Below are positions 8,759-24,627 of a DNA stretch of 35,490 bases, one piece after another. Position 1 is the first letter of the stretch, and each line of letters starts with the position of its first letter. This DNA comes from a virus. The notes under the pieces are model-generated. The model did not search any database. It was not told the origin of the DNA and worked only from the letters and a program-made list of their open reading frames with translations. Both the position numbers and the translations under genes were made by a program. The stretch is taken from the IMG/VR virus record IMGVR_UViG_3300021438_000046, positions 1 through 35,490 of that record; one strand, 5' to 3'.

Positions 8759-8965
8759 TTATCCTTGCATCCACTCTTTTAAAGCCCTTGCCATAATACT
8801 ATATAGTGTTGCCCTAGTACCTAGTTCTAGGTTTTCTACAATCTCCTTATCAGTCACATCATCATTAGCCCACATATGGGCAAGTCGAATCATCTCCTTT
8901 GTAATAACATGATTCTTTAACTCACGTTGCTGTTTAATCTTTTTGAATAGTTGGTTTTTTGTCAT
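8759..8965 (-). CDS. Small HTH-like protein, paralogue of the 14183 product
   Basis: A 68-aa protein. Its core ITKEMIRLAHMWANDDVTDKE, continuing IVENLEL then ARALKEWMQ, aligns with the 14183 product (ITDEFIEVAIAWAKDEVSTAQ, IGKALNL, ALLKVFKQYIQ). Shared positions are IT-E-I--A--WA-D-V----I---L-L and a C-terminal amphipathic helix. The pair looks like diverged copies of one HTH-like module in opposite operons. The start at 8965 lies in the upstream gene, a 32-base overlap. A shorter start at the internal Met cannot be excluded. Confidence 0.65.
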   Translation of the reverse strand: MTKNQLFKKIKQQRELKNHVITKEMIRLAHMWANDDVTDKEIVENLELGTRATLYSIMARALKEWMQG

Positions 8966-10255: not shown

Positions 10256-11077
10256 CTACTTAGTAATATTCACAAATGGTGTCGTGTCCCCCATCATATA
10301 AGTTGGAAGTTGGCCATTCCATTTCTGGATTGCTTGTAATTGCACATAGGCCTCACCACCTTGTTGTTGTACTGCCTCTGCTTGAATTTTGATAGCTTCT
10401 GCCTCGCCCTTGGATTGTTCGATACGTTGCTGTGCTTCTACCTTTATACGCTCAAGATCGTTAGTCGCTTTTTCAGCATTTTGTTGAGCAATTTGTTTTG
10501 CTTCAATTGCATTTTCATAGTCAGAGGTAAATGCCTCATCTACTAAAGAATAGCTAGAGGTGTAGATAATATCTGGGACACTTGCTGTAAAAGCATCATA
10601 AATTTCTGACTGGATTTTATTTCGTTGTTGTGGGATTTCTTCGGCAGAATATTGTGCTATTACTTGTTTCACTGCTGCATCTAAGTGGGGTGTAAGAATT
10701 TTACTGAGGTCAGCATTATATTGTGTATAAAAATCACCAACACGGTCAGCTTTTACTGCCCAATTGACAGTTGATCGGATATTTACTTGCTGCAAATCTT
10801 TTGAATATGTTTCCGATTTATCAATTGCCAATGTTTGTACTTGCAAGTTAATATTTTTTACTGATTCACTAATAGGGTTTACAAAATGCACACCAGGCTC
10901 TAGCGGGGTTCCTGATACGGCGCCCCATTTTAAAACTAAACCACTATGCCCTGTCTGGATTATAGTGAAGCTAAGAAAAAATAAAATGATACCTGCTAGC
11001 AAAACTATTCCGCCAATAATTGTAAGTACGACTGATTTAACTTTTAAGTCTCCGTTTTCTGTTTCAAAGAATGACAT
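10256..11077 (-). CDS. SPFH / prohibitin family membrane protein
   Basis: A 273-aa protein. A membrane span at residues 15-36 (SVVLTIIGGIVLLAGIILFFLS) is followed by the SPFH core, beginning IIQTGHSGLVLKWGAVSGTPL then EPGVHFVNPI, and a long Glu/Gln-rich coiled coil (residues about 190-245, AKQIAQQNAEKATNDLERIK in part). This is the full prohibitin layout. Cellular prohibitins form large membrane rings and regulate FtsH-type proteases. A phage copy could protect phage proteins, alter membrane protease activity or act in exclusion; none of these is shown by the sequence. It is co-transcribed with the 3D-domain protein. Confidence 0.9.
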   Translation of the reverse strand: MSFFETENGDLKVKSVVLTIIGGIVLLAGIILFFLSFTIIQTGHSGLVLKWGAVSGTPLEPGVHFVNPISESVKNINLQVQTLAIDKSETYSKDLQQVNIRSTVNWAVKADRVGDFYTQYNADLSKILTPHLDAAVKQVIAQYSAEEIPQQRNKIQSEIYDAFTASVPDIIYTSSYSLVDEAFTSDYENAIEAKQIAQQNAEKATNDLERIKVEAQQRIEQSKGEAEAIKIQAEAVQQQGGEAYVQLQAIQKWNGQLPTYMMGDTTPFVNITK

Positions 11078-11100: not shown

Positions 11101-11661
11101 TTATTCTCCTACTACTTGTTTATACTCCACAGAATTTGACCAGAACATGTGTGTTTTATCAGCACTACACTTTAATCCTTTATACGGTTTACCTGATTTA
11201 GGTGACACTCCACTCATAATACTTGCATTGTTATGGCATGTAGGGCATGTATAGAGTCTATCGCTAAATGTTGCTGTTGGTTGTTGGGTTGTATTTTTTT
11301 GTATAGCGGGTTGTATAGGACTATCAACTAATCTTTCTCCTTCTTCTAATTCTGGTGCAAATTGCGTACCGTATCCGCACATAGCAAGTGCGCGCCCAAT
11401 TGATCCCGTTTCCGCTTTCTCTACAAAATCTGCGAATCCTGTTTTATCTTCTTGCTTTGTAGCTGATGCAATTATGCGGCCTTCTTCATTTTTGATGTAT
11501 GCACGGTAACGAGCGTTTGTTTGCGTTACTTCTTCTGCGACTGTTTCTATGCCCCACGTAGGACGTTCTTCACGGAACCATACAAGTCTATGTGCAACTT
11601 GCAGATATGGTTTACCTTTTATATTTGCCAGTGGCAGTTCTGTTCCTTTTGGTGTTTCCAT
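11101..11661 (-). CDS. Rad52-like single-strand annealing protein
   Basis: A 186-aa protein. ATG 11661 sits in TAGTATG behind the stop of the small upstream gene; the TTG at 11673 would overlap that gene. The N-terminal 105 residues follow the pattern of phage Rad52-type annealing proteins: YLQVAHRLVWFREERPTW, then YRAYIKNEEGRIIASATKQ, then FVEKAETGSIGRALAMCGYG, the last being the diagnostic AETxAIGRALA block. The C-terminal part has CPTC near residue 137 and a later Cys (KCSADKTH), a small zinc ribbon. It would anneal complementary strands during phage recombination, with RusA resolving the products. Confidence 0.85.
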   Translation of the reverse strand: METPKGTELPLANIKGKPYLQVAHRLVWFREERPTWGIETVAEEVTQTNARYRAYIKNEEGRIIASATKQEDKTGFADFVEKAETGSIGRALAMCGYGTQFAPELEEGERLVDSPIQPAIQKNTTQQPTATFSDRLYTCPTCHNNASIMSGVSPKSGKPYKGLKCSADKTHMFWSNSVEYKQVVGE

Positions 11662-11662
11662 A

Positions 11663-11743
11663 CTAATTCCCAAATCCGCTAATAATTAAACAAAGGATAA
11701 ATATTCCGAAACAAATGTGGTCTGCTCGTTTAGGTTGGTACAT
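11663..11743 (-). CDS. Very small membrane protein (26 aa)
   Basis: A 26-aa frame: a basic N-terminus (MYQPKRADH), one hydrophobic segment (ICFGIFILCLIISGFG) and Asn at the end. It fills the only gap in the leftward operon exactly. Its start is TAATATG, the context used across this genome, and its stop is one base before the ATG of the annealing protein. These features make it a likely real gene despite the length. No family is recognised; it might be a membrane partner of the SPFH protein. Confidence 0.5.
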   Translation of the reverse strand: MYQPKRADHICFGIFILCLIISGFGN

Positions 11744-11993: not shown

Positions 11994-12022
11994 AGTCGTA
12001 GATATGAATACTTAATACCTGT

Positions 12023-12051
12023 ATTATACATCTGACGTCTTTTGACGTCAA
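12023..12051 (-). promoter_or_regulatory. Sigma-70 type promoter of the leftward operon
   Basis: On the minus strand, TTGACG (12051-12046) and TATAAT (12028-12023) are separated by exactly 17 bases, one mismatch from the full sigma-70 consensus. Transcription would start near 12016 and reach the first ATG at 11993 after a leader of some 20 bases. The match is far better than any other promoter-like site in the window. The -35 box overlaps a repeated TGACGTC element. Confidence 0.85.
12033..12050. repeat. Phased TGACGTC repeat, likely operator
   Basis: TGACGTC occurs at 12033-12039 and again at 12043-12049, ten bases apart, one helical turn. The second copy extends to the perfect palindrome TGACGTCA and contains the -35 box of the leftward promoter. 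Two in-phase palindromic half-sites inside a promoter spacer are typical of a repressor or activator site. No cognate protein can be named; the small HTH proteins at 8563, 8759 and 14183 are candidates. Confidence 0.6.
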
Positions 12052-12080
12052 TAGGGGGGTGTTAATAACTTTGTGTATAA

Positions 12081-12110
12081 AACAAAAAGACCCCAATGAC
12101 ATAGGGTCTT
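12081..12110 (-). terminator. Rho-independent terminator, leftward
   Basis: AAGACCC (12087-12093) pairs with GGGTCTT (12104-12110), a 7-bp stem with a 10-base loop. On the minus strand the stem is followed by TTTTTGTTTT, so it works leftward. It lies upstream of the leftward promoter and would stop any leftward transcript from 12110-12500 before it enters the operon, keeping control with the promoter at 12023. Confidence 0.65.
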
Positions 12111-12138
12111 CTTGCCAAAAATACACATCATGCGTAGC

Positions 12139-12255
12139 ATGACCAAAAGTACAGATACTCCTACGACAGAGTATGAGTACGTGGCTAGTTTATTCTATTT
12201 TACTAGTGTAGTCAATATGCTATACTACTTCCATACTGTAGTAGAAATGCTATAG
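12139..12255 (+). CDS. Possible 38-aa membrane protein
   Basis: An open frame starting MTKSTDTPTTEYEYV and continuing with a hydrophobic, aromatic segment (ASLFYFTSVVNMLYYF) to a TAG at 12253. It would be translated from a rightward transcript ending at 12496. There is no Shine-Dalgarno box or upstream coupled gene, and the frame runs through the left arm of the large inverted repeat. The repeats may equally explain the sequence, so this is only a candidate. Confidence 0.22.
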   Translation: MTKSTDTPTTEYEYVASLFYFTSVVNMLYYFHTVVEML

Positions 12256-12280
12256 CGTACCTAATCTCATATTGACTACA
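12207..12280. repeat. Large inverted repeat with inner repeats
   Basis: TGTAGTCAATATG (12207-12219) is the exact reverse complement of 12268-12280. The 48-base interior holds a second stem (ACTAC at 12225 with GTAGT at 12238) and two direct copies of ATGCTATA (12217 and 12248). As RNA it would fold into a long hairpin with a branched loop; as DNA it could be a cruciform or protein-binding site. It does not resemble a terminator because no T-run follows. Confidence 0.6.
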
Positions 12281-12470
12281 TGAGGGAATGAACAGCGTAT
12301 ATATTCCACGACGTGAAAACAATGAGGCATAGCCTGTACTCACAGGAACACGTCTACATTCATCGAGACTCAATTGAATATCAATAATATCCAATAAATC
12401 CAATTTTTGGTTAGCAGACTGTCACAAGCATGGGATAGAACCTATGCAGGGTATATGCAAGTTCATCACT

Positions 12471-12496
12471 AAAGCACTCTTATAGGTGCTTTTTTG
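12471..12496 (+). terminator. Rho-independent terminator, rightward
   Basis: AAAGCAC (12471-12477) pairs perfectly with GTGCTTT (12486-12492) around an 8-base loop, followed by a T-run to 12495. It ends the structured region and isolates the small gene pair that follows. Confidence 0.85.
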
Positions 12497-12500
12497 TTTG

Positions 12501-12509
12501 TGCTATCAT
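12501..12509 (+). promoter_or_regulatory. Extended -10 promoter candidate
   Basis: TGCTATCAT matches the extended -10 form TGnTATAAT except for one base in the hexamer. It lies just after the terminator and 18 bases before the ATG at 12527. The identical nonamer occurs again at 13908-13916, and TGCTATATT occurs at 12867-12875, each time next to a terminator. There is no good -35 box, as is usual for extended -10 promoters. Confidence 0.4.
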
Positions 12510-12526
12510 TCTTATGCGGAGGAACC

Positions 12527-12670
12527 ATGACATTTGTTGATTGGTCTATCGTAGACTTTTACGACAACCATCCTGCAATTGGTGGAATTGCTCGACTCGC
12601 AATCATCGTTTTCAGTATCTATCTTGCTTTCAAGGTAAATGAAAATGCAGAATCCCCCAGTAAGGATTGA
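12527..12670 (+). CDS. Small membrane protein (47 aa)
   Basis: A 47-aa protein with a real Shine-Dalgarno box, GGAGG at 12518-12522, four bases before the ATG. Most genes here lack one. One membrane span is visible (IGGIARLAIIVFSIYLAF), with a short acidic N-terminus and a hydrophilic tail. It sits in a two-gene cassette bounded by terminators on both sides. Function unknown. The distinct translation signal suggests a gene acquired from another background. Confidence 0.65.
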   Translation: MTFVDWSIVDFYDNHPAIGGIARLAIIVFSIYLAFKVNENAESPSKD

Positions 12671-12833
12671 GTGCAAGTATTGCAAGGAACAGACTGGCCT
12701 GCATATCGAGCATGGCGTTATCAAGATCGGTGGTGTGTATCTCATCATCTCTTGCGAGCGTTGCTCTATGCCTATGCTACTCCAACTTGCCGATAAAGAT
12801 GGAAACCTCAAGCCGCAAGGCTTCATTCTCTGA
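12639..12833 (+). CDS. Small zinc-ribbon protein (64 aa)
   Basis: A 64-aa protein with two CxxC pairs, CKYC near residue 12 and CERC near residue 39, the spacing of a zinc ribbon. The strand-rich middle (HIEHGVIKIGGVYLIIS) fits. The start overlaps the membrane-protein gene by 32 bases; AAGG lies four bases ahead. A second in-frame ATG at 12645 is also possible. The stop is followed at once by a terminator. Probably co-translated with the 47-aa membrane protein. Confidence 0.65.
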   Translation: MKMQNPPVRIECKYCKEQTGLHIEHGVIKIGGVYLIISCERCSMPMLLQLADKDGNLKPQGFIL

Positions 12834-12865
12834 AAACCCTGCTATCTTCTGCGGGGTTCTTTTTT
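12834..12865 (+). terminator. Rho-independent terminator, rightward
   Basis: AACCCTGC (12835-12842) pairs with GCGGGGTT (12851-12858) with one G-T pair and an 8-base loop, followed by C and six T. It begins directly after the stop of the zinc-ribbon gene and closes the two-gene cassette. Confidence 0.85.
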
Positions 12866-12866
12866 G

Positions 12867-12875
12867 TGCTATATT
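12867..12875 (+). promoter_or_regulatory. Extended -10 promoter candidate
   Basis: TGCTATATT directly after the terminator T-run resembles an extended -10 box. Transcription would start near 12882, inside the palindrome at 12880-12899, so binding there could block initiation. It would drive the genes at 12913 and 13304. Confidence 0.4.
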
Positions 12876-12879
12876 AAAA

Positions 12880-12899
12880 ATAACCTGCGGCCAGGTTAT
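12880..12899. promoter_or_regulatory. Palindrome at predicted start of transcription, likely operator
   Basis: ATAACCTG (12880-12887) and CAGGTTAT (12892-12899) form an 8-bp perfect dyad around CGGC. A related dyad with the same AACC/GGTT arms sits between the two genes downstream (13272-13302). Placement over the likely transcription start suggests autoregulation; a short RNA hairpin is the alternative. Confidence 0.5.
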
Positions 12900-12912
12900 G
12901 TAATGCAATGTT

Positions 12913-13275
12913 ATGAACAAATTATCAAATCAAAAACCAATGTCAAATGAATTTTTAGCAAAAGAAGAAACCTTGGTAGAAAAACAAGAAAGCAGACAGC
13001 GTAATATGCATGAAGAGTGCAGCAATGAACTAAATGACGCAAAGGGTAAAATAATGAATGTTATTGAATCCATAGGGCTTTCTAAAAAACAAGAGGAAGC
13101 AGTCAAAAGTCTAATTAAACAAATTCTTAATTACACGTATCAAGGCATAGACATTTCAAATAGAGAATACGTAAGAACAGTTTATGAAATTTTAAGAGCA
13201 GAAGGAATTGGGGAAAAATATCTTACCAATATGTTCTCAAGCGATGAAGTTAATGAATATCCAGCATCTAAATAA
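12913..13275 (+). CDS. Hypothetical helical protein, partner of the HEXXH protein
   Basis: A 120-aa, strongly charged, mostly helical protein. Residues 15-45 are Glu/Lys rich and could form a coil. The C-terminal part (EYVRTVYEILRAEGIGEKYL) looks like a small helical bundle. No DNA-binding motif is obvious, though a regulator is plausible because its gene is flanked by two related palindromes. Together with the following metalloprotease-like gene the arrangement recalls regulator/protease pairs (such as ImmR/ImmA), but there is no sequence proof of this. A start at the second Met (PMSNEF) is possible. Confidence 0.62.
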   Translation: MNKLSNQKPMSNEFLAKEETLVEKQESRQRNMHEECSNELNDAKGKIMNVIESIGLSKKQEEAVKSLIKQILNYTYQGIDISNREYVRTVYEILRAEGIGEKYLTNMFSSDEVNEYPASK

Positions 13276-13302
13276 TTAACCACCTTGCCGCAGGTTAATT
13301 AT
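13272..13302. promoter_or_regulatory. Intergenic palindrome related to the upstream operator
   Basis: ATAATTAACC (13272-13281) pairs with GGTTAATTAT (13293-13302) around an 11-base loop. It overlaps the stop codon of the upstream gene and ends one base before the ATG at 13304. The arms share AACC/GGTTA with the dyad at 12880. In mRNA the hairpin would occupy the ribosome-entry region of the HEXXH gene, so control could be at DNA or translation level. Confidence 0.5.
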
Positions 13303-13303
13303 T

Positions 13304-13657
13304 ATGAAGAAAATTACAATTCCAGTAGGTGCTTATAAAGCAGAAGTTTATATTTGGATTTGCACACCAGAAGAAGCGACTAAAGAATATAAAAAAACAA
13401 TATTCTATAGTGCTGGCTATACATCAGAATTTCATAAAAATGGAGCAAAAACATTAAGTATTGATGGGTTTGATCCAATAATCTGGATAGATTCAAATTT
13501 AAAAGGTCACTTCAGAACTTCCGGAATGGTACATGAATTTTTTCATGTTATCATACACCTAATGGACTCAAGAAATTGTAAAATAGACGTTGATAACAAC
13601 GAACCATATGCGTATCTTATGGAATATCTAATGAAACAATATCTATTTTCAGCCTAG
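13304..13657 (+). CDS. Putative zinc metallopeptidase-like protein (HEXXH)
   Basis: A 117-aa protein with MVHEFFHVIIH: H77, E78 and H81 form the HEXXH zinc site, and E100 (DNNEPYAYLMEYL) is well placed as the third ligand, as in gluzincin-type mini-proteases. The N-terminal half is strand-rich. Short HEXXH proteins of this kind are common in phages and mobile elements; some (ImmA) cut repressors, but most are uncharacterised. Here it follows a charged helical protein and a palindromic site. A proteolytic role in switching is inference. The small size leaves little room for additional domains. Confidence 0.72.
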   Translation: MKKITIPVGAYKAEVYIWICTPEEATKEYKKTIFYSAGYTSEFHKNGAKTLSIDGFDPIIWIDSNLKGHFRTSGMVHEFFHVIIHLMDSRNCKIDVDNNEPYAYLMEYLMKQYLFSA

Positions 13658-13696
13658 GGCTACTGGGCGAGTTCAGAACCAACTTAAGTTCAACTT

Positions 13697-13740
13697 AGTT
13701 TACATCTACTCAATCAATGTAAACTATCTTGTTTGTTTCT
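13697..13740 (+). terminator. Possible terminator after the HEXXH gene
   Basis: AGTTTACAT (13697-13705) pairs perfectly with ATGTAAACT (13717-13725); the 9-bp stem has an 11-base loop. The following ATCTTGTTTGTTTCT is only moderately T-rich, so termination would be weak. A regulatory dyad is the alternative. Confidence 0.4.
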
Positions 13741-13802
13741 ATACATCTCTATTTTAGAGAGAATCCTGGTAAAATGAATATGTATAAAATTCCTATTAAA
13801 AT

Positions 13803-13825
13803 ACACATATTTATAAGATATGTGT
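13803..13825. repeat. AT-rich perfect hairpin
   Basis: ACACATAT (13803-13810) pairs with ATATGTGT (13818-13825), loop TTATAAG. It lies in the gene-free stretch 13658-14182. No T-run follows, so it is not a terminator. Binding site or RNA element. Confidence 0.45.
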
Positions 13826-13886
13826 TAGTTTATCCACATGGCATTTGCATAAAATAACAGGGTGGTTTATACTTTCTTTAATCTCT

Positions 13887-13954
13887 GTGGAAGGAGTGAA
13901 TCAATTATGCTATCATAGTTGCCAGAAGAGTCTCGCTCTGCTTTCTCCTTCCAC
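13887..13954 (+). promoter_or_regulatory. Inverted repeat overlapping a terminator loop; possible attenuator
   Basis: GTGGAAGGAG (13887-13896) is the perfect complement of CTCCTTCCAC (13945-13954). The second arm is the loop of the strong terminator at 13926-13974, so upstream RNA could pair with the terminator loop, as in an attenuator or pseudoknot. Between the arms lies TGCTATCAT (13908-13916), the same nonamer as the promoter candidate at 12501. If transcription starts there, the first arm is absent from the RNA. Confidence 0.4.
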
Positions 13955-13976
13955 GGAAAGAGCGGGGCTCTTTTGT
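13926..13976 (+). terminator. Strong rho-independent terminator
   Basis: AAGAGTCTCGCTCT (13926-13939) pairs with AGAGCGGGGCTCTT (13959-13972), a 14-bp stem with two G-T pairs, then TTTT-GTTT. The 19-base loop contains CTCCTTCCAC, which matches an upstream arm. It separates the HEXXH gene region from the accessory operon. Confidence 0.75.
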
Positions 13977-13980
13977 TTAA

Positions 13981-14170
13981 GGGCCAATCCGGCAACACCG
14001 ATCGGGGTGACCTCAGGATATTATGAGGATGAAGTACCGACCCACTACAGGCACATCTAACAGAGAGGACTAGAGTACGTTCCGTCACTCACAGATTACT
14101 AGCCTGAATCAACTGCAGAACAAGTAGCGTAAAGCTACTGCAGGAATGGCTAGTGAGGCTTGCATGAGTT
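13981..14170 (+). other. Structured leader, possible noncoding RNA or riboswitch-like element
   Basis: About 190 bases between a strong terminator and the Shine-Dalgarno box of the next gene. Stems visible by eye: CACC/GGTG (13996-14009), CCTCA/TGAGG (14011-14028), and a nested hairpin with outer ACTAGCC/GGCTAGT (14098-14104 with 14148-14154), middle CTGC/GCAG (14113 with 14140) and inner AGTAGC/GCTACT (14123-14139, loop GTAAA). It is GC-richer than its surroundings and has no convincing ORF. I recognise no known riboswitch or tRNA. Confidence 0.45.
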
Positions 14171-14182
14171 AGGAGTTAGAGT

Positions 14183-14446
14183 GTGGCTAGAGAATTAATA
14201 TATTATATAATAGGTATGAGCTTATTAGATGCTTGTAAGGAGACTAAAAGGGAAAGAGTGAATTTATTTGATATAGAAATTACAGATGAATTTATAGAAG
14301 TAGCCATTGCATGGGCTAAAGATGAGGTATCTACGGCACAAATTGGTAAGGCATTAAACCTACCAAGAACTAACTATATATTACCAGTACAACGAGCGTT
14401 GTTGAAAGTTTTTAAGCAATATATACAAACCCATGAGGCTAATTGA
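14183..14446 (+). CDS. Small HTH-like protein, first gene of accessory operon
   Basis: GTG start at 14183 with AGGAG (14171-14175) seven bases upstream; product 87 aa. An alternative start, ATG 14216, removes the hydrophobic lead MARELIYYIIG. The core (ITDEFIEVAIAWAKDEVSTAQ then IGKALNL) aligns with the 8759 product of the leftward operon, so the two are paralogues. The predicted fold is an HTH with an additional C-terminal helix. As first gene behind a structured leader it may regulate the accessory operon. The stop lies within the next gene (14-base overlap). Confidence 0.68.
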   Translation: MARELIYYIIGMSLLDACKETKRERVNLFDIEITDEFIEVAIAWAKDEVSTAQIGKALNLPRTNYILPVQRALLKVFKQYIQTHEAN

Positions 14447-15176
14447 TATTGTAAAAGCGCAACCTAAGTACGATGACTTTTATAAAGTTGTTGACAAAAG
14501 TGCTGATATTTTAGCCATGTTTAAGTCTGGCATGATGCCAATAGAAATCAGTAGAAAATTTGGTTGTTCAAGAGAAAGAATAAGACAAATCCTATTATTT
14601 AAATTCGGTGTAAAAGTTTCTGATTTTGATTTTAGAAAAAAAAGAGCAAAAATTCGGGCAGAACGGCGTTTAAAAAAGATGGACGAGAGATGTTTAAAAT
14701 TATTTGGTTGTACTTTTAATGAGCATAAAGAGCTTGTAAAACATAAAGGCAATCCAACCCGTGTATTTTCAGAATTAAAAAGAAATACTCGTTTCATGGG
14801 TGTTCCTATGAAAATGAATCTTTTTGAGTGGTGGACTTTATGGAAAGAATCAGGACACTGGGCAGAACATGGAGTACATAAAGGAGCTTATGCAATGGTA
14901 AGAATTGACAAGGATAAACCTTTTGAAAAAAATAACGTGCATATAGTTTCATTACAAGAAGTAATGAGCAAAAGAACACCAAGAAAAAAAGTTAAGTTTT
15001 GGTATATTAACAATAAACACTGGTACCGATATACAAACAAAAAAGGGATTAGAGTAGAGAGACGTATTTATAGCAAACAGCTATATGTTATGGGTAAATA
15101 TATTAAAACATTTAAAACTATAGAAGAGTGCATGGAAAAAGCAAGAGAAATACTAGGGGATAAATTTACTGAATAA
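14433..15176 (+). CDS. HTH protein with HNH-like C-terminal region
   Basis: A 247-aa basic protein. Residues about 20-60 contain an HTH (MMPIEISRKFGCSRERIRQIL), close to the sigma-70 region 4 or NUMOD type. A very basic region follows (KKRAKIRAERRLKKMDER). Residues about 135-180 have WTLWKESGHWAEHGVHKGAYA and VRIDKDKPFEKNNVHIVSLQE. The pattern R-D-x-KP-(F/Y)-x-x-x-NV is typical of phage proteins grouped with HNH or homing endonucleases. The C-terminal part resembles an AP2-like or repeat DNA-binding tail (WYINNKHWYRYTNKKGIRV). A DNA-binding nuclease is likely, but the metal site is not clear. Confidence 0.6.
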   Translation: MRLIDIVKAQPKYDDFYKVVDKSADILAMFKSGMMPIEISRKFGCSRERIRQILLFKFGVKVSDFDFRKKRAKIRAERRLKKMDERCLKLFGCTFNEHKELVKHKGNPTRVFSELKRNTRFMGVPMKMNLFEWWTLWKESGHWAEHGVHKGAYAMVRIDKDKPFEKNNVHIVSLQEVMSKRTPRKKVKFWYINNKHWYRYTNKKGIRVERRIYSKQLYVMGKYIKTFKTIEECMEKAREILGDKFTE

Positions 15177-15178
15177 TT

Positions 15179-15304
15179 ATGACAAATAAACTATACCCAC
15201 ACACAATCCTTGCTACAGATGATACCTGGGAACAATTTATAAAGAAGAAAGAAGAGTCTGGATTGACATGGAACCAATTTATACAGGAGCTATTAAACAA
15301 ATAG
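15179..15304 (+). CDS. Small ribbon-helix-helix-like protein (41 aa)
   Basis: A 41-aa protein starting at TAATTATG after the previous stop: LYPHTILATDDTWEQFIKKK, then EESGLTWNQFIQELLNK. A strand followed by two helices, with the turn ESGLTWNQF, is the layout of a ribbon-helix-helix DNA-binding protein, although short. The ending LLNK-stop followed by AGTATG is repeated at 15572-15585, where only a remnant frame remains. Likely a small regulator. Confidence 0.5.
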   Translation: MTNKLYPHTILATDDTWEQFIKKKEESGLTWNQFIQELLNK

Positions 15305-15307
15305 AGT

Positions 15308-15517
15308 ATGGAAAGATTCCACATAGGCTTAAAGTATGAGTATTGTCCGAATGGTAATTATTGGAGCGAGATCTCTGGAATGTTCGACACAAGGATTTAT
15401 CTTTATTGTGATTGTAATAAATGTGGCGAAAAGGTTTATGAATTAAAACCAATAGATGTAACTAAAAAAGTAAGTCCGGATGTTATTAAAAGCCGCAAGG
15501 AATGGTTAAAACTATAA
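15308..15517 (+). CDS. Hypothetical Cys-containing protein
   Basis: A 69-aa protein, three bases after the previous stop. It contains YCPNGNYW and CDCNKCGEKVYEL, four Cys that could form one zinc ribbon. The C-terminus is basic (KSRKEWLKL). There is no recognised family. Start context GAGTATG. Confidence 0.6.
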   Translation: MERFHIGLKYEYCPNGNYWSEISGMFDTRIYLYCDCNKCGEKVYELKPIDVTKKVSPDVIKSRKEWLKL

Positions 15518-15547
15518 GAAATAAGATTAAATATAAATACTAAAAAT

Positions 15548-15580
15548 ATGATTGAGGTAGAAAAATTATTAAATAAATAG
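15548..15580 (+). pseudogene. Remnant of a duplicated 3' end (10 codons)
   Basis: A 10-codon frame (MIEVEKLLNK) ends with the same TTAAA(C/T)AAATAGAGTATG junction that follows the ribbon-helix-helix-like gene at 15304. The rest of that gene is absent. The most likely reading is that a gene-plus-junction duplicated and one copy was lost down to its last codons. Confidence 0.35.
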
Positions 15581-15583
15581 AGT

Positions 15584-15895
15584 ATGTTCAAAAAGTTATT
15601 TGATCTGTTTAGCAAACCGGAGAATGTATATGAAAAGCCGATTGAGGCAGAGAAGCCAGTTAGACCACCTAAACCAGAAGAGAAGTACCAATCTTGGTGT
15701 GGGGAAGAGTTTGATTATAAATGGAGTTCGTTTTACGAGTTATGGCAGCCATTAGAATATTATGCACATAGTAAAAAATTACATGAAACAAAAGATGATA
15801 AAAATGGTATTTGGTATATTTGTAGTGGTAAGAAAGTAAAACATTATGAAAAAAGCCATAAGGATGACTGGAAAAAATACAAGACAATAAAATAA
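15584..15895 (+). CDS. Hypothetical protein
   Basis: A 103-aa protein. The first 45 residues are a Lys/Pro/Glu linker (EKPIEAEKPVRPPKPEEK); the remainder is rich in Trp and Tyr (YQSWCGEEFDYKWSSFYELW). No family is recognised. The stop overlaps the start of the next gene (TAATG). Confidence 0.6.
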   Translation: MFKKLFDLFSKPENVYEKPIEAEKPVRPPKPEEKYQSWCGEEFDYKWSSFYELWQPLEYYAHSKKLHETKDDKNGIWYICSGKKVKHYEKSHKDDWKKYKTIK

Positions 15896-16137
15896 TGCAA
15901 TACAGAGTATCAGCAATCAAAACACAATGGTTTACAGATGACCTAGACCATGCAAAAGAGATGGCAAGGAAAGAGGTCAATGACAATGAAGGATGGGCGA
16001 AGGTAGAAGAATATACACCCGGTCAGATGAAAAACTACCCTAGTCAACAAGTGTTTATCTGTACGTTCTATGATGGGAAGTACGATGAATCAGATAGTGT
16101 GCTAGATATTAAACAACCAAAAAGACCAAAAGTATGA
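15895..16137 (+). CDS. Hypothetical protein
   Basis: An 80-aa acidic protein. Its opening (MQYRVSAIKTQWFTDDLDHA, then KEMARKEV) with a repeated strand and a helix suggests a small alpha/beta fold. It is linked by overlapping stop-start codons on both sides, so it is certainly read in an operon. Function unknown. Confidence 0.65.
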   Translation: MQYRVSAIKTQWFTDDLDHAKEMARKEVNDNEGWAKVEEYTPGQMKNYPSQQVFICTFYDGKYDESDSVLDIKQPKRPKV

Positions 16138-16301
16138 AATGTAGGCACCAATTCTTTGAGGTACAAAAAGCTAAAAGAGATGTAGGAGATATAGAAATAT
16201 TAGGAGTAAAGCTGCAAACAGAGTACGGGGTAATGGTTGTTTGTGCTTTATGTGGGGAGAAGCGATTACTTTGGAGCGAGTCTGAATATGAAAAAGTATA
16301 G
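16134..16301 (+). CDS. Small zinc-finger-like protein (55 aa)
   Basis: A 55-aa protein beginning MKCRHQFFEVQKAK and containing VVCALCGEKRLLW. Cys3/His5 and the CxxC pair could form one zinc site. The start overlaps the previous stop (ATGA). The last 14 bases overlap the next gene. This coding frame is shorter than usual search limits but is supported by overlaps at both ends. Confidence 0.55.
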   Translation: MKCRHQFFEVQKAKRDVGDIEILGVKLQTEYGVMVVCALCGEKRLLWSESEYEKV

Positions 16302-16428
16302 ATTCTACTTTACAGTAAACGATAACCAAGAATGGTTTATTGATAGAGTAGAAACATGGGATGGTATGCAGTATATTGAGGATGAGGATATGAATATTAA
16401 GTGGAAGAATAAGAAAATAAGTTTATGA
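16288..16428 (+). CDS. Hypothetical protein (46 aa)
   Basis: A 46-aa protein, starting at ATG 16288 (MKKYRFYFTVNDNQEW). An upstream in-frame ATG at 16237 lies deep in the previous gene and is unlikely. The sequence is strand-rich and acidic (DRVETWDGMQYIEDED). It has a stop-start overlap with the next gene. Confidence 0.5.
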   Translation: MKKYRFYFTVNDNQEWFIDRVETWDGMQYIEDEDMNIKWKNKKISL

Positions 16429-16673
16429 AGTCAAAAGAATTACTACTTAGTAAGTACCTTGAAAATATGAGATTTAAATTCCCTGTTGAAGAAGCAAATT
16501 TGGAAATCTTTATTGAAACTGGGTACTTTAATGACTCGGATGGTATTTTTTATGAGGTATCTATAAAAGATACAGACGATGATATAAACGTATCCGGCGT
16601 TTTTAACAAGGATATGATAAAAGAACTAATAATATTTTTGCAGTTTGCCATAGCATTAGAAGATGCAGAGTAA
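16425..16673 (+). CDS. Hypothetical protein
   Basis: An 82-aa acidic protein (about a quarter Asp+Glu), with IFIETGYFNDSDGIFYEVSI and a C-terminal helix (KELIIFLQFAIALEDAE). It starts inside the previous stop (ATGA). Small acidic proteins in such operons are sometimes DNA mimics that block host enzymes, but nothing specific supports that here. Confidence 0.6.
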   Translation: MKSKELLLSKYLENMRFKFPVEEANLEIFIETGYFNDSDGIFYEVSIKDTDDDINVSGVFNKDMIKELIIFLQFAIALEDAE

Positions 16674-16691
16674 ACCTATACATTCCAACCC

Positions 16692-16892
16692 ATGAAACCA
16701 GCAGAAACATTATATTTTTCTAAACAAACCTATACAAAATCTATGATTAAAGGCCAATCGTCAATTGAGAATTTACAAGTACAGGAGAATGTTCGTGATG
16801 TGCTACGTGCAATTGTTACTCATTTTAAGGAAGAGGGATTTGATGAATATAAGATTGAGATGGATAATGGGACGCTAACTTTTACTAAGTAG
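16692..16892 (+). CDS. Hypothetical protein (66 aa)
   Basis: A 66-aa protein: a short basic start, then LQVQENVRDVLRAIVTHFKE and DEYKIEMDNGTLTFTK. The layout of helix then beta hairpin is compact and folded-looking. No family is recognised. The short gap (18 bp) upstream contains no clear promoter. Confidence 0.58.
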   Translation: MKPAETLYFSKQTYTKSMIKGQSSIENLQVQENVRDVLRAIVTHFKEEGFDEYKIEMDNGTLTFTK

Positions 16893-16894
16893 GT

Positions 16895-17086
16895 ATGAAA
16901 AATGGAAACTATAAAAGACTACTATGTACTGTACTAAATCATAAAGTAGGGTACAGACAATATACGATAAAAAGAACAAAGTCAGACATACTGGAGTGTT
17001 ACTGTTTACGCTGTTACTTTACATTTTTTATACACGATAAAAATTATATTACTGGGGGAATAACTATAACCCATAACAACAAATAG
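16895..17086 (+). CDS. Small Cys-rich protein (63 aa)
   Basis: A 63-aa basic protein with LCTVLNHKVGYRQYTI, then ECYCLRCYFTFFIHDK. The paired Cys and His can bind zinc. The pattern (C-x5-H ... CxxC) is like the many other small metal-binding proteins of this phage. It starts at GGTATG, two bases after the previous stop. Confidence 0.58.
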   Translation: MKNGNYKRLLCTVLNHKVGYRQYTIKRTKSDILECYCLRCYFTFFIHDKNYITGGITITHNNK

Positions 17087-17087
17087 T

Positions 17088-17306
17088 ATGAACAAGAAAC
17101 TAAACGAAGCAAAACGGAGATTATTTAAGCAGATGATTAGTGCAGATCATGTAGAGCTGAATGAGCATGTAGATGATTTTATGCGAGAGGTTGTCAGCAT
17201 ATTTATTCAAGAGTTATCAGAGAATAAGCTCAAGGATAATGAATATGCAGAGGCTATTGATGAGTATGTGCAAGATATTGCAGAAGAATTTTTAAAAAAT
17301 ATATGA
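17088..17306 (+). CDS. Hypothetical helical protein (72 aa)
   Basis: A 72-aa, highly acidic, all-helical protein (VELNEHVDDFMREVVSIFIQ, then YAEAIDEYVQDIAEEFLKN). One base after the previous stop; its stop overlaps the next start. It could be a protein-interaction or inhibitor protein; there is no match I can name. Confidence 0.58.
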   Translation: MNKKLNEAKRRLFKQMISADHVELNEHVDDFMREVVSIFIQELSENKLKDNEYAEAIDEYVQDIAEEFLKNI

Positions 17307-17629
17307 AAAGACACGATTTATTTTTATCTATAGACCAATTTGTCAATTATGTTTCAAATGAGTGTAGCGAGTTCCATGAGGATAATACTGTTTCTTTTAA
17401 AAAACAGTATATTAAAGATTATATTAACGATCTTATCATTCAGGCCCGCCAAGATAAAGCAGAAAATATATTAAAATGTATAGAGTCAAAATTGCCTGTT
17501 TCTCATGCTGAAGTTCGTGATGGGGCTTGGATGGTTGACCAAGAAGAAATAGTTAAAGAAATTCGTAAATATTATGGGGAAAAAGAAAGCGACAACAGTA
17601 AAAAGATTTCAAGTATTACAGCGGGATAA
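17303..17629 (+). CDS. Hypothetical protein
   Basis: A 108-aa protein, mostly helical: LFLSIDQFVNYVSNECSEF, then YIKDYINDLIIQARQDKAEN. The last 56 bases overlap the HNH gene in another frame. Such a long overlap is unusual here and suggests that the HNH gene was inserted or that the 3' end of this gene extended into it. Confidence 0.58.
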   Translation: MKRHDLFLSIDQFVNYVSNECSEFHEDNTVSFKKQYIKDYINDLIIQARQDKAENILKCIESKLPVSHAEVRDGAWMVDQEEIVKEIRKYYGEKESDNSKKISSITAG

Positions 17630-17822
17630 CTTTCGTTGTGTATATTGTGGAATTACTAGCAAACAAACGCATCTAACTGTAGATCATATTTTACCGCAGT
17701 CTAAGGGCGGGAAAAATACTATCGAGAATATGATTACTTCCTGTTCACAATGTAATAGGGGAAAAGGAAGTTTAGAATTAACAAATGAACAATTAAAATA
17801 TGTTCGTGAAAAGAATATATGA
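17574..17822 (+). CDS. HNH endonuclease
   Basis: An 82-aa protein with the complete HNH fold: FQVLQRDNFRCVYCG, then HLTVDHILPQSKGGKNTIEN, then SCSQCNRGKG. C22/C25 and C57/C60 hold the structural zinc, D37-H38 supply the catalytic histidine, and N48 or N52 the asparagine. HNH nucleases of this size may act in packaging when next to terminase, as restriction-like nickases, or as selfish elements. Here it lies about 2.6 kb before terminase and overlaps the previous gene by 56 bases, so a selfish or host-degrading role is equally possible. Confidence 0.88.
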   Translation: MGKKKATTVKRFQVLQRDNFRCVYCGITSKQTHLTVDHILPQSKGGKNTIENMITSCSQCNRGKGSLELTNEQLKYVREKNI

Positions 17823-18175
17823 AAAGAAACATTACACTTGAACAACTAAGCAGCCTGTCAGAGTTTGGCAGAGAAAACCTATGGCGATACTTTGAACCAA
17901 TTTTTACAAAGGAGCTAGGTGCAATGACACCAGAGGAACAAAAGAAAATGGGCAATATCATGATGGGCAAGGTTATCCCACTACTGGATATTCCAACTAT
18001 GATTGAGTATTTATCTACCAACAGCACTGTAAAAATGGAGCAATGGAATGATGAATATAAATATTGGCGTGTTGGTCTGAATTGGTTTAGCGAGGATGAT
18101 TACTGTTATGTTGTAGAAAAGAAAGAGTTGTGCGATGCATTATGGGAATTAGTGAAAGAATTACTAGAGGATTGA
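17819..18175 (+). CDS. Hypothetical protein
   Basis: A 118-aa acidic protein. It has an N-terminal helical part (LEQLSSLSEFGRENLWRYF), a Met/Lys-rich centre (EEQKKMGNIMMGKVIPLLD) and a C-terminus YCYVVEKKELCDALWELVKE. A SSLSEFGR opening with a Trp/Tyr-rich end is seen in phage proteins of unknown role. Start and stop are coupled to neighbours. Confidence 0.6.
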   Translation: MKRNITLEQLSSLSEFGRENLWRYFEPIFTKELGAMTPEEQKKMGNIMMGKVIPLLDIPTMIEYLSTNSTVKMEQWNDEYKYWRVGLNWFSEDDYCYVVEKKELCDALWELVKELLED

Positions 18176-18176
18176 T

Positions 18177-18317
18177 GTGACACTAAACCGGCCCCCAAAA
18201 GTTTTTCTTCCTCTTCTTGCTGAAATAAAACTTAAACATAAGGCAAAATATACAAAATGTGTATGTTCATTGTGTACAAAAGGAAAAAAATCGCTTTTAT
18301 ATAATAAAAAGGTATGA
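18177..18317 (+). CDS. Possible small Cys-motif protein (46 aa, GTG start)
   Basis: A frame starting with GTG one base after the previous stop and ending in an ATGA overlap with the next ATG. It encodes 46 aa with LNRPPKVFLPLLAEIKLKHK and a CVCSLC motif near residues 28-33. It fills what would otherwise be the longest gap in this operon, with coupled ends on both sides. There is no ATG, and an ATG-TGA just upstream is unusable. A real zinc-binding microprotein is likely. Confidence 0.45.
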   Translation: MTLNRPPKVFLPLLAEIKLKHKAKYTKCVCSLCTKGKKSLLYNKKV

Positions 18318-18889
18318 CAAAGGAACAACTTGACCATATCCTTCTAGCTTCGAATAGGACACTAAAGCAGATTATTGACATGTCCTATAGAGAGTTTGTG
18401 ACGTATGGTGGCGAGCTTGTTAGTAAGGGTAGGTGGTCTATGAAGGAGTTTGCAGCAGCCCAGAAGATCAAAGAAAAGTATAATCCTATCAAGTCTAAGC
18501 CGGCAGAACCACAAGTAGAGATGGTAAACGTGGCAGAAGAAGCCGCAAGAGTATTCACTAAACCGCACGTAGACGCTCAAAACTCGCTTATAGAAGGTTC
18601 TGATGGTGAAAAGGTACAAGACAGCGGTATAGATCGTGCAAGGGCATATATCGCTAAGAAGGCAGATAGTAAAGTACAGTTTGTTTTCGAGATACTATCT
18701 GATGGCAGACCACACCATAAACGTGATATATTCCAGACAATGAGAGATAAGGGATGGACAGATGAGCATGATCTTAGGAAATATGTGAGTGATATACGAG
18801 ACTACCTAGCGTTTGCAGCATCTCATTACGAGATACCAGACTGTCCGCCAGGTAAACCAGCTATTTATCAATTAAGATTAAGGAAATGA
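18314..18889 (+). CDS. Hypothetical protein with C-terminal winged-helix-like domain
   Basis: A 191-aa protein. The N-terminal 50 residues are helical (LDHILLASNRTLKQIIDMS). A linker rich in Pro/Glu/Val follows. Residues about 115-191 (VQFVFEILSDGRPHHKRDIF, then TDEHDLRKYVSDIRDYLAFA) look like a winged helix: helix, wing, PHHKRDI recognition region, helix. A DNA-binding adaptor or replication-related role is conceivable. It is the largest unknown of this operon apart from the 14433 gene. Confidence 0.62.
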   Translation: MTKEQLDHILLASNRTLKQIIDMSYREFVTYGGELVSKGRWSMKEFAAAQKIKEKYNPIKSKPAEPQVEMVNVAEEAARVFTKPHVDAQNSLIEGSDGEKVQDSGIDRARAYIAKKADSKVQFVFEILSDGRPHHKRDIFQTMRDKGWTDEHDLRKYVSDIRDYLAFAASHYEIPDCPPGKPAIYQLRLRK

Positions 18890-19056
18890 AAAAGCCAACA
18901 TTGTTACAAAGAATCCTTAGACCATTCCATTGGCAGGAGATACTACGAGTGTGCAGCTATGTCTTTATTGATGAGTTTAAAAAGCTAAATAAGGATATGA
19001 AAGCTATGGAGAAACGGATTAAAGACTTGGAAAGTCAGATTAAATTGATGCGATAA
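18886..19056 (+). CDS. Small protein with C-terminal coil (56 aa)
   Basis: A 56-aa protein. Its second half is a charged amphipathic helix with heptads (FKKLNKDMKAMEKRIKDLES). The first half contains the basic and hydrophobic segment LLQRILRPFHWQEILRVCSY, which could be a membrane-facing helix. It is coupled by ATGA to the previous gene and followed by TAATATG. It lies close to the endolysin and might be a lysis accessory (spanin-like or holin-like), unproven. Confidence 0.5.
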   Translation: MKKPTLLQRILRPFHWQEILRVCSYVFIDEFKKLNKDMKAMEKRIKDLESQIKLMR

Positions 19057-19057
19057 T

Positions 19058-19150
19058 ATGCCAGATAAACCGCCACATGATGGATGCTATTGCAGGGATT
19101 GCAAGCCATATTGGGTAAAGGTGGTTGAAAGCTGGAAGAAAAAGAAGTAA
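19058..19150 (+). CDS. Very small zinc-knuckle protein (30 aa)
   Basis: A 30-aa protein with CYCRDCKPYW, three Cys within six residues, plus a His five residues earlier (PPHDGC). This could bind one zinc as a knuckle. TAATATG start, one base behind the previous stop. Ends in KKKK. Confidence 0.42.
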   Translation: MPDKPPHDGCYCRDCKPYWVKVVESWKKKK

Positions 19151-19159
19151 ACTATTGCT

Positions 19160-19894
19160 ATGACAAATGACGAATATATCTCCGGTCTTTATAATACAAT
19201 GCAGCCACTAGCTATTTCATTCCTTGATGCAGCTAATAAAGAAGGCTTTAATCTACGTATTACCGCAGGATTTAGGACGTTTGAGGAACAAGATGCCTTA
19301 TATGCCAAAGGTCGTACAGAACCAGGACCTATTGTTACAAATGCAAAGGGTGGAGAATCGTTCCATAACTTTGGCCTAGCAATCGATGTTGTTGATACTC
19401 AAAACGGCTACCAGATTGACTGGGATAAGCTAGGGAGTATCGGAGAGTCTGTAGGACTAGAGCATGGAGACCGTGGGTATACAGATCGTCCACACTTTCA
19501 ATATCGTGGCGGGCTTACTCTCGAACAAGTGCAGGCAGGAGAAAGGCCAGGAGAATATCAGCCACAAGAACCGGGTAATAAACCAACAGAAAAACATATG
19601 TCATTGTATGATTCACAGTATTTAGTCTATGTCCCTAAGAATGCAGGTACTTCTTTTGAGTATTATGTAATTAAACGACATGGAACAGACCCACTTGAAA
19701 CAGCGCACAAGGTAGCTAAGAAGCATTACCATAGCGTTATTGCATTGTTTAAAGACCAGCCAAACGGTATTTGCTTGATGAAACGCAAGGCACAACAGGG
19801 TGTAGATCATTACCTTGAAGGGCTTACACAAGGGCCAGGGTATAGACCAAATGCTGAATTTGAAAAGCACGGAGACTTAGCAAGAATGATTTGA
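19160..19894 (+). CDS. Endolysin, peptidase M15 (VanY-type D,D- or L,D-carboxypeptidase/endopeptidase)
   Basis: A 244-aa protein. Residues about 10-120 are a peptidase M15 domain: LRITAGFRTFEEQDALYAKG, SFHNFGLAIDV (H69 and D76 bind zinc) and DRPHFQY (H112 third ligand, D109 probable catalytic acid). This is the catalytic part of lysins such as Ply500, which cut the peptide of peptidoglycan. Residues about 140-244 form a separate C-terminal domain, probably for wall binding, not recognised. A Pro/Glu linker lies between (PGEYQPQEPGNKPTEKH). No signal peptide is seen, so a holin is needed; the best candidates are far away at 7336 and 7520. Confidence 0.9.
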   Translation: MTNDEYISGLYNTMQPLAISFLDAANKEGFNLRITAGFRTFEEQDALYAKGRTEPGPIVTNAKGGESFHNFGLAIDVVDTQNGYQIDWDKLGSIGESVGLEHGDRGYTDRPHFQYRGGLTLEQVQAGERPGEYQPQEPGNKPTEKHMSLYDSQYLVYVPKNAGTSFEYYVIKRHGTDPLETAHKVAKKHYHSVIALFKDQPNGICLMKRKAQQGVDHYLEGLTQGPGYRPNAEFEKHGDLARMI

Positions 19895-19897
19895 GAT

Positions 19898-19993
19898 ATG
19901 TGTGATGTAGTAGGCACATGTGAGCGTGGTTGTGAAAATGAGGACGAACATGATGAAACAATGCAGGGAGGAATTAGTCAGAGTATACGGTAA
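19898..19993 (+). CDS. Possible tiny Cys-rich protein (31 aa)
   Basis: A 31-aa frame with MCDVVGTCERGCENEDEHDE: three Cys and an acidic stretch. It starts four bases after the endolysin stop. It overlaps the next frame from 19920 or 19950, so at most one of the two starts at 19898-19950 is strongly used. Coding is plausible because of its position but not certain. Confidence 0.3.
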   Translation: MCDVVGTCERGCENEDEHDETMQGGISQSIR

Positions 19994-20150
19994 GTATTGG
20001 GTTATCCGGAAGTGTTGTGGAGTGAAGACATTGCATAGAGTCTATTTCTGGCATATACTGTCCGCAATAAAAAAGTTGCATAAGCATAACTATCCTTTAT
20101 GGCCTATGCATACTTTGCCAGACTATAAGATAGGAAGACCATGGAAGTAA
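19920..20150 (+). CDS. Hypothetical basic protein
   Basis: The frame is open from a GTG at 19920 (76 aa). Internal ATGs at 19938 and 19950 give 70 or 66 aa, and the last is the most natural because the sequence then begins MKQCREELVRVYGKYW. The product is basic and aromatic (VYFWHILSAIKKLHKHNYPL), possibly nucleic-acid binding. It is the last gene before terminase. No family is recognised. Confidence 0.5.
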   Translation: MSVVVKMRTNMMKQCREELVRVYGKYWVIRKCCGVKTLHRVYFWHILSAIKKLHKHNYPLWPMHTLPDYKIGRPWK

Positions 20151-20168
20151 ATTGATTGTTATATTTAT

Positions 20169-20606
20169 ATGTCCGAACCTGTAGGAAGACCATCAGAAAT
20201 GACTGAAGAAAAAGTAAAGAAACTTGAAGAGGCTTTTGCTCTTGATGCAAGTGTAGGTGAAGCTTGTTTTTATGCTGATATTAGCAAAACAACATATTAT
20301 AATTGGCTAGAAAAAGCACCAGAATTAGTTAACCGATTTGAGGCTTTACGAGAAAGACCTGTTTTACTTGCAAGACAATCAGTTATTGATAGCATGAAAG
20401 AGAACCCTGATATTGCTTTAAAGTATCTTGAACGTAAGCGAAGAAAGGAATTTGCAACTCGTGTTGAGGAAGCTCTTGAAGGGGGTGTTGATATTACCAT
20501 GGGTACCTTGAAACAAGCAGCACAAGAATTGCGAGAGGAAAATAAAAAACAGCCCAATGAAACTGAACAAAGAACAAGCCAAAATAGCGATCAAGGCAAT
20601 CAATAG
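20169..20606 (+). CDS. terS: Terminase small subunit
   Basis: A 145-aa protein. The N-terminal part (GRPSEMTEEKVKKLEEAFAL, then DASVGEACFYADISKTTYYNW) is an HTH of the type found in small terminases; ADISKTTYYNWLEKAPEL is the recognition region. A helical part with RKRRKEFATRVEEALEGGVD follows and a polar tail (NETEQRTSQNSDQGNQ). Small terminases form rings that recognise the packaging start site on the genome. The gene overlaps the large subunit by 50 bases. Confidence 0.85.
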   Translation: MSEPVGRPSEMTEEKVKKLEEAFALDASVGEACFYADISKTTYYNWLEKAPELVNRFEALRERPVLLARQSVIDSMKENPDIALKYLERKRRKEFATRVEEALEGGVDITMGTLKQAAQELREENKKQPNETEQRTSQNSDQGNQ

Positions 20607-21942: not shown

Positions 21943-21962
21943 AAATAATTAAAACATATTGT

Positions 21963-22094
21963 ATGAACAACAAATCAAGTCTCCCGCCGCTAGAAACAAT
22001 CGCTTACTACATCGTGAACATATGTAGTTTTGGAACTCTTTGGATGATGAAGATAGTAATTAAAAAGGCTATATCCGAGTCGGATAAAAAATAA
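21963..22094 (+). CDS. Small membrane protein (43 aa)
   Basis: A 43-aa protein with a central hydrophobic stretch (IAYYIVNICSFGTLWMMKIVI) and a charged tail (KKAISESDKK). One membrane pass. It lies directly behind terL, is followed by TAATATG, and is in the late operon. Possible roles are a holin/antiholin or a membrane anchor; there is no family match. Confidence 0.55.
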   Translation: MNNKSSLPPLETIAYYIVNICSFGTLWMMKIVIKKAISESDKK

Positions 22095-22095
22095 T

Positions 22096-22242
22096 ATGGC
22101 ATCAATAGGAGATATTAAGGTCGAATGTGAAGAGTGTGGAGAGTTGATTAGGATTAAAGATGCAGAGTTTATAGAAAAGAAAGAAGGATCATGGACTAGA
22201 ACTGTAGAAGTTTGCTATGATTGTTTTAGAAATCATCATTAA
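22096..22242 (+). CDS. Small zinc-ribbon protein (48 aa)
   Basis: A 48-aa protein with CEECGELI at residues 11-14 and CYDC at residues 40-43: two CxxC pairs, the spacing of a zinc ribbon. The middle is acidic (KDAEFIEKKEGSW). TAATATG start. A similar cysteine arrangement is found in the next gene and in many others in this genome. Confidence 0.6.
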   Translation: MASIGDIKVECEECGELIRIKDAEFIEKKEGSWTRTVEVCYDCFRNHH

Positions 22243-22254
22243 AAGACAGCCCGT

Positions 22255-22536
22255 ATGCCTAAAGAAGATGAGCATGTAATCTGCAACTTTTGTTCTAAGC
22301 CGCACAAGAACTCAGAAGTAAAGAAGATCAAGGTCACATATATCAAGTGCAATGATTGCGAGGAAGGTGATATTGATGAATTGGAGAATATTTATCAAAC
22401 TGCTAGATTAATGAGCGGTACCGCAAATATTCCACATATTCAACAGGGAACAAACATGAATAAACAAGTTAGTAAAGTTTTGCCTCCTCCTATGGTTGCA
22501 GGAGCTATGAGACCACCTGAGGGAATGGGCTTATGA
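22255..22536 (+). CDS. Zinc-finger protein resembling the ClpX N-terminal domain
   Basis: A 93-aa protein. The first 35 residues (VICNFCSKPHKNSEVKKIKV, then KCNDC) follow the pattern of the ClpX zinc-binding domain: CxFCxKxxxxxEVKKxI ... CxxC. The rest is low-complexity with a Pro-rich end (VLPPPMVAGAMRPPEG). ClpX zinc domains bind substrates and adaptors, so this protein might mimic one to alter ClpXP, or it may be only a similar zinc finger. The start codon follows AGACAGCCCG, a 10-mer also found before the ATG at 30100. Confidence 0.55.
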   Translation: MPKEDEHVICNFCSKPHKNSEVKKIKVTYIKCNDCEEGDIDELENIYQTARLMSGTANIPHIQQGTNMNKQVSKVLPPPMVAGAMRPPEGMGL

Positions 22537-24588: not shown

Positions 24589-24603
24589 GGAACTATATAT
24601 ACT
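24574..24603 (+). promoter_or_regulatory. Promoter candidate upstream of the portal-kinase gene
   Basis: TTGACG (24574-24579) and TATACT (24598-24603) are separated by 18 bases. Transcription would start near 24610, 18 bases before the GTG start at 24628. The -35 box equals the one of the leftward promoter at 12046. The site lies at the end of the upstream gene and would supply extra mRNA for the head genes. Confidence 0.45.
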
Positions 24604-24627
24604 GTTTAATATATTAACTTGCATATT

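Follow-up and report, generated by a model that had tools for sequence, protein, structure and literature searches.

A terminator loop complementary to an upstream arm points to a possible transcription attenuator in a phage genome

An intrinsic terminator ahead of a long series of co-directional genes raises the question of how these genes are transcribed and, in the locus examined here, of whether pairing of the terminator loop with a stretch upstream could make termination conditional. The window analysed is the whole of the IMG/VR virus record IMGVR_UViG_3300021438_000046 (35,490 bases); a direct repeat of 126 bases near both of its ends (1-126 = 35354-35479) indicates that it is probably a complete phage genome.

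Genome context

Leftward genes extend from about 12,000 down to 7,873, and rightward genes start at about 12,500 and continue through the packaging, head and tail genes. Relatives were found for the structural genes (terminase at 2 loci, 45 %; capsid at 24 loci, 51-67 % over the best segment), and the early region gave scattered single-gene matches only, comprising 11101-11673 (9 loci, function unknown in PHROGs) and other genes, e.g. those at 10256, 15308 and 17574. The search returned no relatives of gene 13304, the scan for tRNA and tmRNA genes found none, and a capsid alignment, aimed at the host, confirmed no relative in genome contigs. The leftward operon includes a gene for a Band_7/SPFH protein (10256-11077, - strand) and, from a reading of the ORF list, sugar epimerase- and glycosyltransferase-like genes (22533-24154 and 30100-32020) lie among the structural genes.

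The terminator loop pairs with an upstream arm beyond chance

The core of the locus consists of the following features:
13884-13896, + strand: upstream arm (TCTGTGGAAGGAG) that pairs with the terminator loop
13926-13972, + strand: intrinsic-terminator hairpin with a 14-bp stem (13926-13939/13959-13972) and a 19-nt loop (13940-13958)
13945-13957, + strand: loop segment (CTCCTTCCACGGA), complementary to 13884-13896
13970-13978, + strand: U-rich tail of the terminator (CTTTTGTTT)

The original prediction of a 14-bp terminator at 13926-13972 was correct: this is a + strand hairpin, with 12 Watson-Crick and two G.U pairs in its stem, and the stretch 13926-13978 is built as expected of an intrinsic terminator, in which a U-rich tract follows a stable hairpin that contains G+C. 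The 57-nt window at 13921 (-28.3 kcal/mol) has the top stability listed genome-wide (next, -28.2), and a standard terminator scan missed the hairpin because it admits only loops of 3-8 nt. The hairpin scan gave no other + strand hairpin of this class from 12858 to 29796, and the terminator thus precedes ca. 16 kb of co-directional genes; a looser scan added three weaker + strand terminator-like sites (17617, 20591 and 29513), a yield not above that from shuffled sequences. The open frame that crosses the terminator (13845-14060) was rejected as a gene, having no family above the cut-off and a single phage match with an E value of 0.6.

The ten loop bases 13945-13954 are exactly complementary to 13887-13896, as had been claimed, and the full helix (13884-13896/13945-13957) is longer than the 10 bp first given, with 13 bp that include one U.G pair. 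Pairing of the loop with 13860-13925 reaches -24.2 kcal/mol in its best duplex, a value matched by none of 1065 stretches of the window and by one of 2000 shuffled loops, and no helix of 13 bp arose among 1000 dinucleotide shuffles or among 1764 natural upstream stretches. We also compared the locus with a control set, not dereplicated, of 208 terminator-like hairpins from 36 sequences (614,997 bases) of this phage and related records. Among the 39 that are intergenic, the match of 13 was the longest, followed by one of 11 and by 37 of at most 9; when coding regions are included, an upstream helix of at least 10 bp occurs in 17 of the 208 and one of at least 12 bp in seven, the longest (18 bp) lying inside a repeat array of contig L062. 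In a related phage (L027:11045-11084), the loop of a hairpin after the capsid gene matches an adjacent stretch of 11 bases; this case was not taken as the same element because it lies directly after capsid-gene matches on the opposite strand. The terminator and the pairing of its loop with the upstream arm are thus real and beyond chance.

A strong hairpin with a U tail, ca. 270 bases past the last gene of the upstream operon (12639-13657), also suits a plain terminator that ends this operon or a short leader RNA, any readthrough into the rightward block being due to a phage antitermination protein, as at lambda pR′-tR′, and the loop-arm match being a by-product. That no other + strand hairpin of the class occurs before 29796, and that the downstream leader is not specially folded (see below), fits this account too, but the absence of the 13-bp match from all shuffles and natural stretches argues against it, and we see it as a real possibility, if not one to lean towards.

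A second alternative is a short regulatory RNA of ca. 97 nt (about 13880-13976) that would use its C/U-rich loop (CUCCUUCCAC) to act in trans on sites rich in purines and would be locked internally by its own 5′ arm; a precedent exists in other bacteria, where C-rich loops are known to bind such sites. In the folding model the arm would indeed mask the loop; however, the complement of the decamer occurs nowhere else in the 35-kb window, and the best site among 46 chosen gene starts reaches -13.4 kcal/mol, against -22.4 kcal/mol for the arm. Such an RNA seems improbable here.

Promoter-like sites and the upstream region

The folds described below depend on where the RNA begins, and the following site would place its start near 13880:
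13844-13873, + strand: sigma-70-like promoter match (TTTGCA, 18 nt, TATACT; 9/12)

No sigma-70-like site between the terminator and the gene upstream of it matches better, but this is a weak match to the consensus, and promoter-like sites in 12500-16500 are fewer than expected (9, against a shuffle mean of 17.3). The same site scores 8/10 as a Bacteroidota-type promoter, as do two more sites in 13400-14216; a score of 8 was recorded at 265 of 70,904 positions and exceeded at 35. Perfect TTTG/TAnnTTTG sites occur at 12066 (+ strand), at 12123 (- strand) and, inside a gene, at 26165, and the control region 12000-12130 holds a near-canonical sigma-70 site (TTGACG-N17-TATAAT, 12028, - strand) that overlaps a GACGTC repeat.

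Operator-like palindromes lie upstream of the element at 13691-13731 and 13803-13825. Between the divergent operons there is a large non-coding block (12190-12500) with a long perfect inverted repeat (GTAGTCAATATG/CATATTGACTAC) and a terminator-like hairpin near 12476-12497. This block folds better than its shuffles (z -2.90, 0/100 equally good), and the lowest fold z among 1180 windows of 120 nt (-6.4) is found at 12061 on the minus strand; the block and the stretch 12060-12180 (minus strand) possibly code for a phage non-coding RNA. Trans-pairing of the leader with 12060-12510 (-33.8 and -33.2) was no better than with random blocks (mean -35.6).

Two competing predicted folds of similar energy

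Two further hairpins bear on the availability of the arm:
13864-13902, + strand: possible anti-antiterminator hairpin, predicted to hide the arm 13884-13896 in RNA that starts at or before 13864
13897-13921, + strand: small hairpin (-4.5 kcal/mol) that contains ATG-CTA-TCA-TAG (13907-13918)

When each fold was forced on RNA 13880-13978, the long helix and the terminator came out at -36.1 and -36.0 kcal/mol; given this start and a model free of pseudoknots, the alternative helix excludes the terminator at comparable energy, as in an attenuator. The long helix has a predicted probability of 0.79-0.99 once nascent RNA begun at 13880 has been extended to 13955-13970, bases under the polymerase not being allowed for, and complementing six arm bases in silico raised the predicted terminator from 0.21 to 0.98. 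With starts further upstream (13700-13864, to 13978) the terminator is favoured (0.87-0.98), its probability being 0.97 in RNA 13860-13978, 0.96 from 13700 and 0.90 from 13782. The mean probability of hairpin 13864-13902 is 0.94 in RNA 13860-13978, but 0.05 from 13700 and 0.09 from 13782, and its rarity in these longer RNAs means that it is not the whole reason why the terminator is favoured there. With RNA extended to 14260 the balance shifts, the long helix being favoured from 13860 (0.92) and the outcome divided from 13880 (0.52 versus 0.44), so the model cannot name the winning state.

A predicted effect of upstream sequence on a terminator is not confined to this locus: the predicted terminator fell to 0.5 or less with 115 of the 1764 natural upstream stretches and with 21 of the 1000 shuffled ones, and 61 of the 208 control hairpins showed the same loss within their own flanks. 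The long-helix fold also keeps a 6-bp hairpin (-5.1 kcal/mol) before the U tail. The upstream arm, moreover, has its partner in the loop rather than in either side of the stem, so both helices could coexist in part, as a pseudoknot, and termination could still follow.

The inverted repeats might instead matter as DNA, as sites bound by a repressor or a replication protein. The palindromes at 13691-13731 and 13803-13825 would belong to the same control region, and these upstream repeats do resemble operators. However, the three non-Watson-Crick G.U pairs (two in the stem and one in the long helix) are those expected of a + strand RNA rather than of symmetric DNA sites, and the minus strand of the same 120 bases folds less well (-29.5 against -40.7 kcal/mol), though it still beats its own shuffles (z -3.84). 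We regard this explanation as very unlikely.

Proposed attenuation mechanism

We tentatively propose that the rightward gene block is preceded, in this element, by a transcription attenuator, i.e. a conditional terminator, an interpretation that we lean towards without being confident of it. Both helices, their excess over chance and their near-equal folds from one assumed start come from the sequence and the folding model, as does the order of emergence, in which the arm (13884-13896) would be the first to leave the polymerase and the emerging loop segment (13945-13957) could pair with it before the 3′ side of the terminator exists. The resulting long helix would enclose the 5′ side of the terminator stem, presumably lowering termination, so that a polymerase that started near 13880, if this is indeed the start, would tend towards readthrough. 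Were the arm occupied, the 14-bp terminator would form and the transcript would end near 13976. Such occupation, which might tip the balance, could come from the transcript itself, by way of hairpin 13864-13902 when transcription begins further upstream, or from a bound protein, ribosome or antisense RNA. A more specific version seems unlikely to us, namely a near-equal switch in which the antiterminator captures the terminator loop, encloses one stem arm and gates the long rightward block, with RNA from the local promoter (ca. 13880) reading through and RNA started upstream stopping.

The downstream leader and the start of the first gene

Behind the terminator lie a leader and two genes:
13979-14215, + strand: untranslated leader that reaches from the terminator to the likely start codon, with a higher G+C content over the first 200 bases
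14051-14061, + strand: 5′ half of a predicted stem; the 3′ half (14175-14184) overlaps GTG 14183
14098-14154, + strand: nested hairpin with successive stems of 7, 5 and 5 bp (-20.8 kcal/mol)
14216-14446, + strand: first gene, likely from ATG 14216 (76 aa), similar to the protein encoded at 8759-8965 (- strand)
14433-15176, + strand: second gene (247 aa), with a weak sigma-70 region-4-like stretch (E 0.013, below the cut-off)

About 190 bases after the terminator had been described as GC-richer, and they are: 13983-14172 has 49 % G+C against 38 % for the genome, and 1.4 % of the 190-nt windows are as high. The original prediction extended RNA-based control to a nested-stem leader. The hairpin at 14098-14154 does exist, its outer 7 bp having a mean pairing probability of 0.99 within the leader, but the leader as a whole is not specially folded (13970-14185, z -1.15, 22/200 shuffles as good). 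Within its chosen limits the hairpin gave z -3.30 (1/200 shuffles as good), and the wider 14090-14165 gave z -2.30 (4/200); 46 of 23,622 overlapping 57-base windows, on the two strands, fall below -20.8 kcal/mol. The other segments, 13978-14050 (z -0.35, 71/200) and 14050-14186 (z -1.99, 9/200), and the + strand 120-nt windows from 13981, 14041 and 14101 (z +0.64, -0.78 and -0.55) fold little or no better than shuffles, and we therefore treat the folding of the leader as ordinary or undecided. RNA-based control is thus plausible at the terminator, where a competing helix exceeds chance and is balanced from one assumed start, but its extension to the leader depends on one chosen hairpin and on a gene start that is probably wrong.

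This start, GTG 14183 preceded by AGGAG, is doubtful. Motifs of the Shine-Dalgarno (SD) type precede 5 of 46 starts (11 %), chosen from the ORF list as the first possible start of each frame and so perhaps wrong in some cases, against 11.4 % at random places. Among 45 of these starts, position -1 is T in 36 and never G, and position -6 is A in 31; A-rich starts without an SD sequence have been described for Bacteroidetes (PMC6847099). ATG 14216 fits this context, and a motif shared with the 8759-8965 protein begins at residue 22 when counted from it and at residue 21 in that protein, which indicates that AGGAG and GTG 14183 probably do not mark the start, although the GTG is paired in the folding model (mean unpaired probability 0.02-0.04). 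Some related records appear poor in SD-like motifs and others do not (e.g. 0 of 16 ORFs in L045, 6 of 13 in L062). In 12510-12530, an SD-like GGAGG directly before the ATG at ca. 12527, which opens a short frame, is an exception in this genome. The ATG-CTA-TCA-TAG at 13907-13918 stands behind GGAAGGAG, and a three-codon leader ORF there is possible but unsupported; in this genome, SD-like motifs are no commoner before the chosen genes than at random.

The protein of the first gene shares 14 of 50 residues with that of 8759-8965 (E 1e-5 for a single comparison); neither of these small proteins, one in each operon direction, has a Pfam match above the cut-off. A segment of the second-gene protein is weakly similar to phrog_16521 (function unknown; E 0.00011), and its C-terminal part is reminiscent, in our estimation, of HNH homing proteins.

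Relatives and known systems

By sequence, no convincing relative of the element or of the two genes behind it was found in the collections searched. The DNA of 12500-16500 had no match in phage records, and that of 13860-14190 had only short matches (E 1-4) in four phage records and one plasmid. No convincing counterpart of the element appeared in the two terminase-relative records, nor in the 19 capsid-relative records searched out of 24, the short contigs L007, L008, L022, L024 and L026 being left out; matches of 14-28 bases in seven of the 19 (E 0.1-0.5) were treated as chance. In searches with the leader as a pseudo-protein (degenerate DNA), a pattern was matched by 61 and 47 stretches of viral contigs and by 286 of genome contigs, none of them confirmed; such searches require exact short stretches, and the records searched may be fragments. 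A single-sequence covariance model of 14050-14186, which reaches close relatives only, found itself alone in 37 sources and nothing in 14 records. The genes behind the leader had no relatives in the viral contigs or records searched (12 for the first gene and 19 for the second); in phage records, the first gene matched eight records at E 4-5 only, and the second matched two (E 0.005, 35 % coverage).

The Rfam search ruled out a known RNA family for the element, with no match at gathering score in the window and, at E ≤ 10, four hits in 13660-14460, all below gathering. One of these models, that of the PyrR-binding pyr attenuators (RF00515), shares serial hairpins ending in a terminator and matched over its full length, but at 20.3 bits (E 3.3, chance level), against a gathering score of 54, the element does not belong to that family.

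The late leader of phage lambda (pR′-tR′), which is subject to antitermination by Q, likewise has a short leader RNA and a terminator before a long rightward block; unlike lambda, no Q-like protein appeared among the phage proteins scanned, which are part of the proteome. In antisense attenuators of the pT181 type an upstream leader segment competes with the terminator, as it would here, but we found no convincing antisense promoter over the leader: with the sigma-70 consensus, the minus strand of 13880-14300 has one site at 8/12, whose -35 box matches at only 2 of 6 positions. The leader attenuator of Bacillus subtilis rplJL comprises an anti-antiterminator, an antiterminator and a terminator (PMC4538822), and three competing structures are also predicted in our element. 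The likeness is one of predicted structure; the phage element differs in that its competing arm engages the terminator at the loop instead of at a stem arm, and in that no protein ligand is known for it. A brief search of the open-licence literature found no description of the element.

Of the readings considered, a conditional terminator of an already known general kind, with an unusual loop-capturing arm and a mechanism that is here proposed, is the likeliest. If the hairpin is a plain terminator, the locus is ordinary; if the attenuator is real, a compact phage switch would head a long gene block and would act on the terminator by way of the loop instead of the arms.
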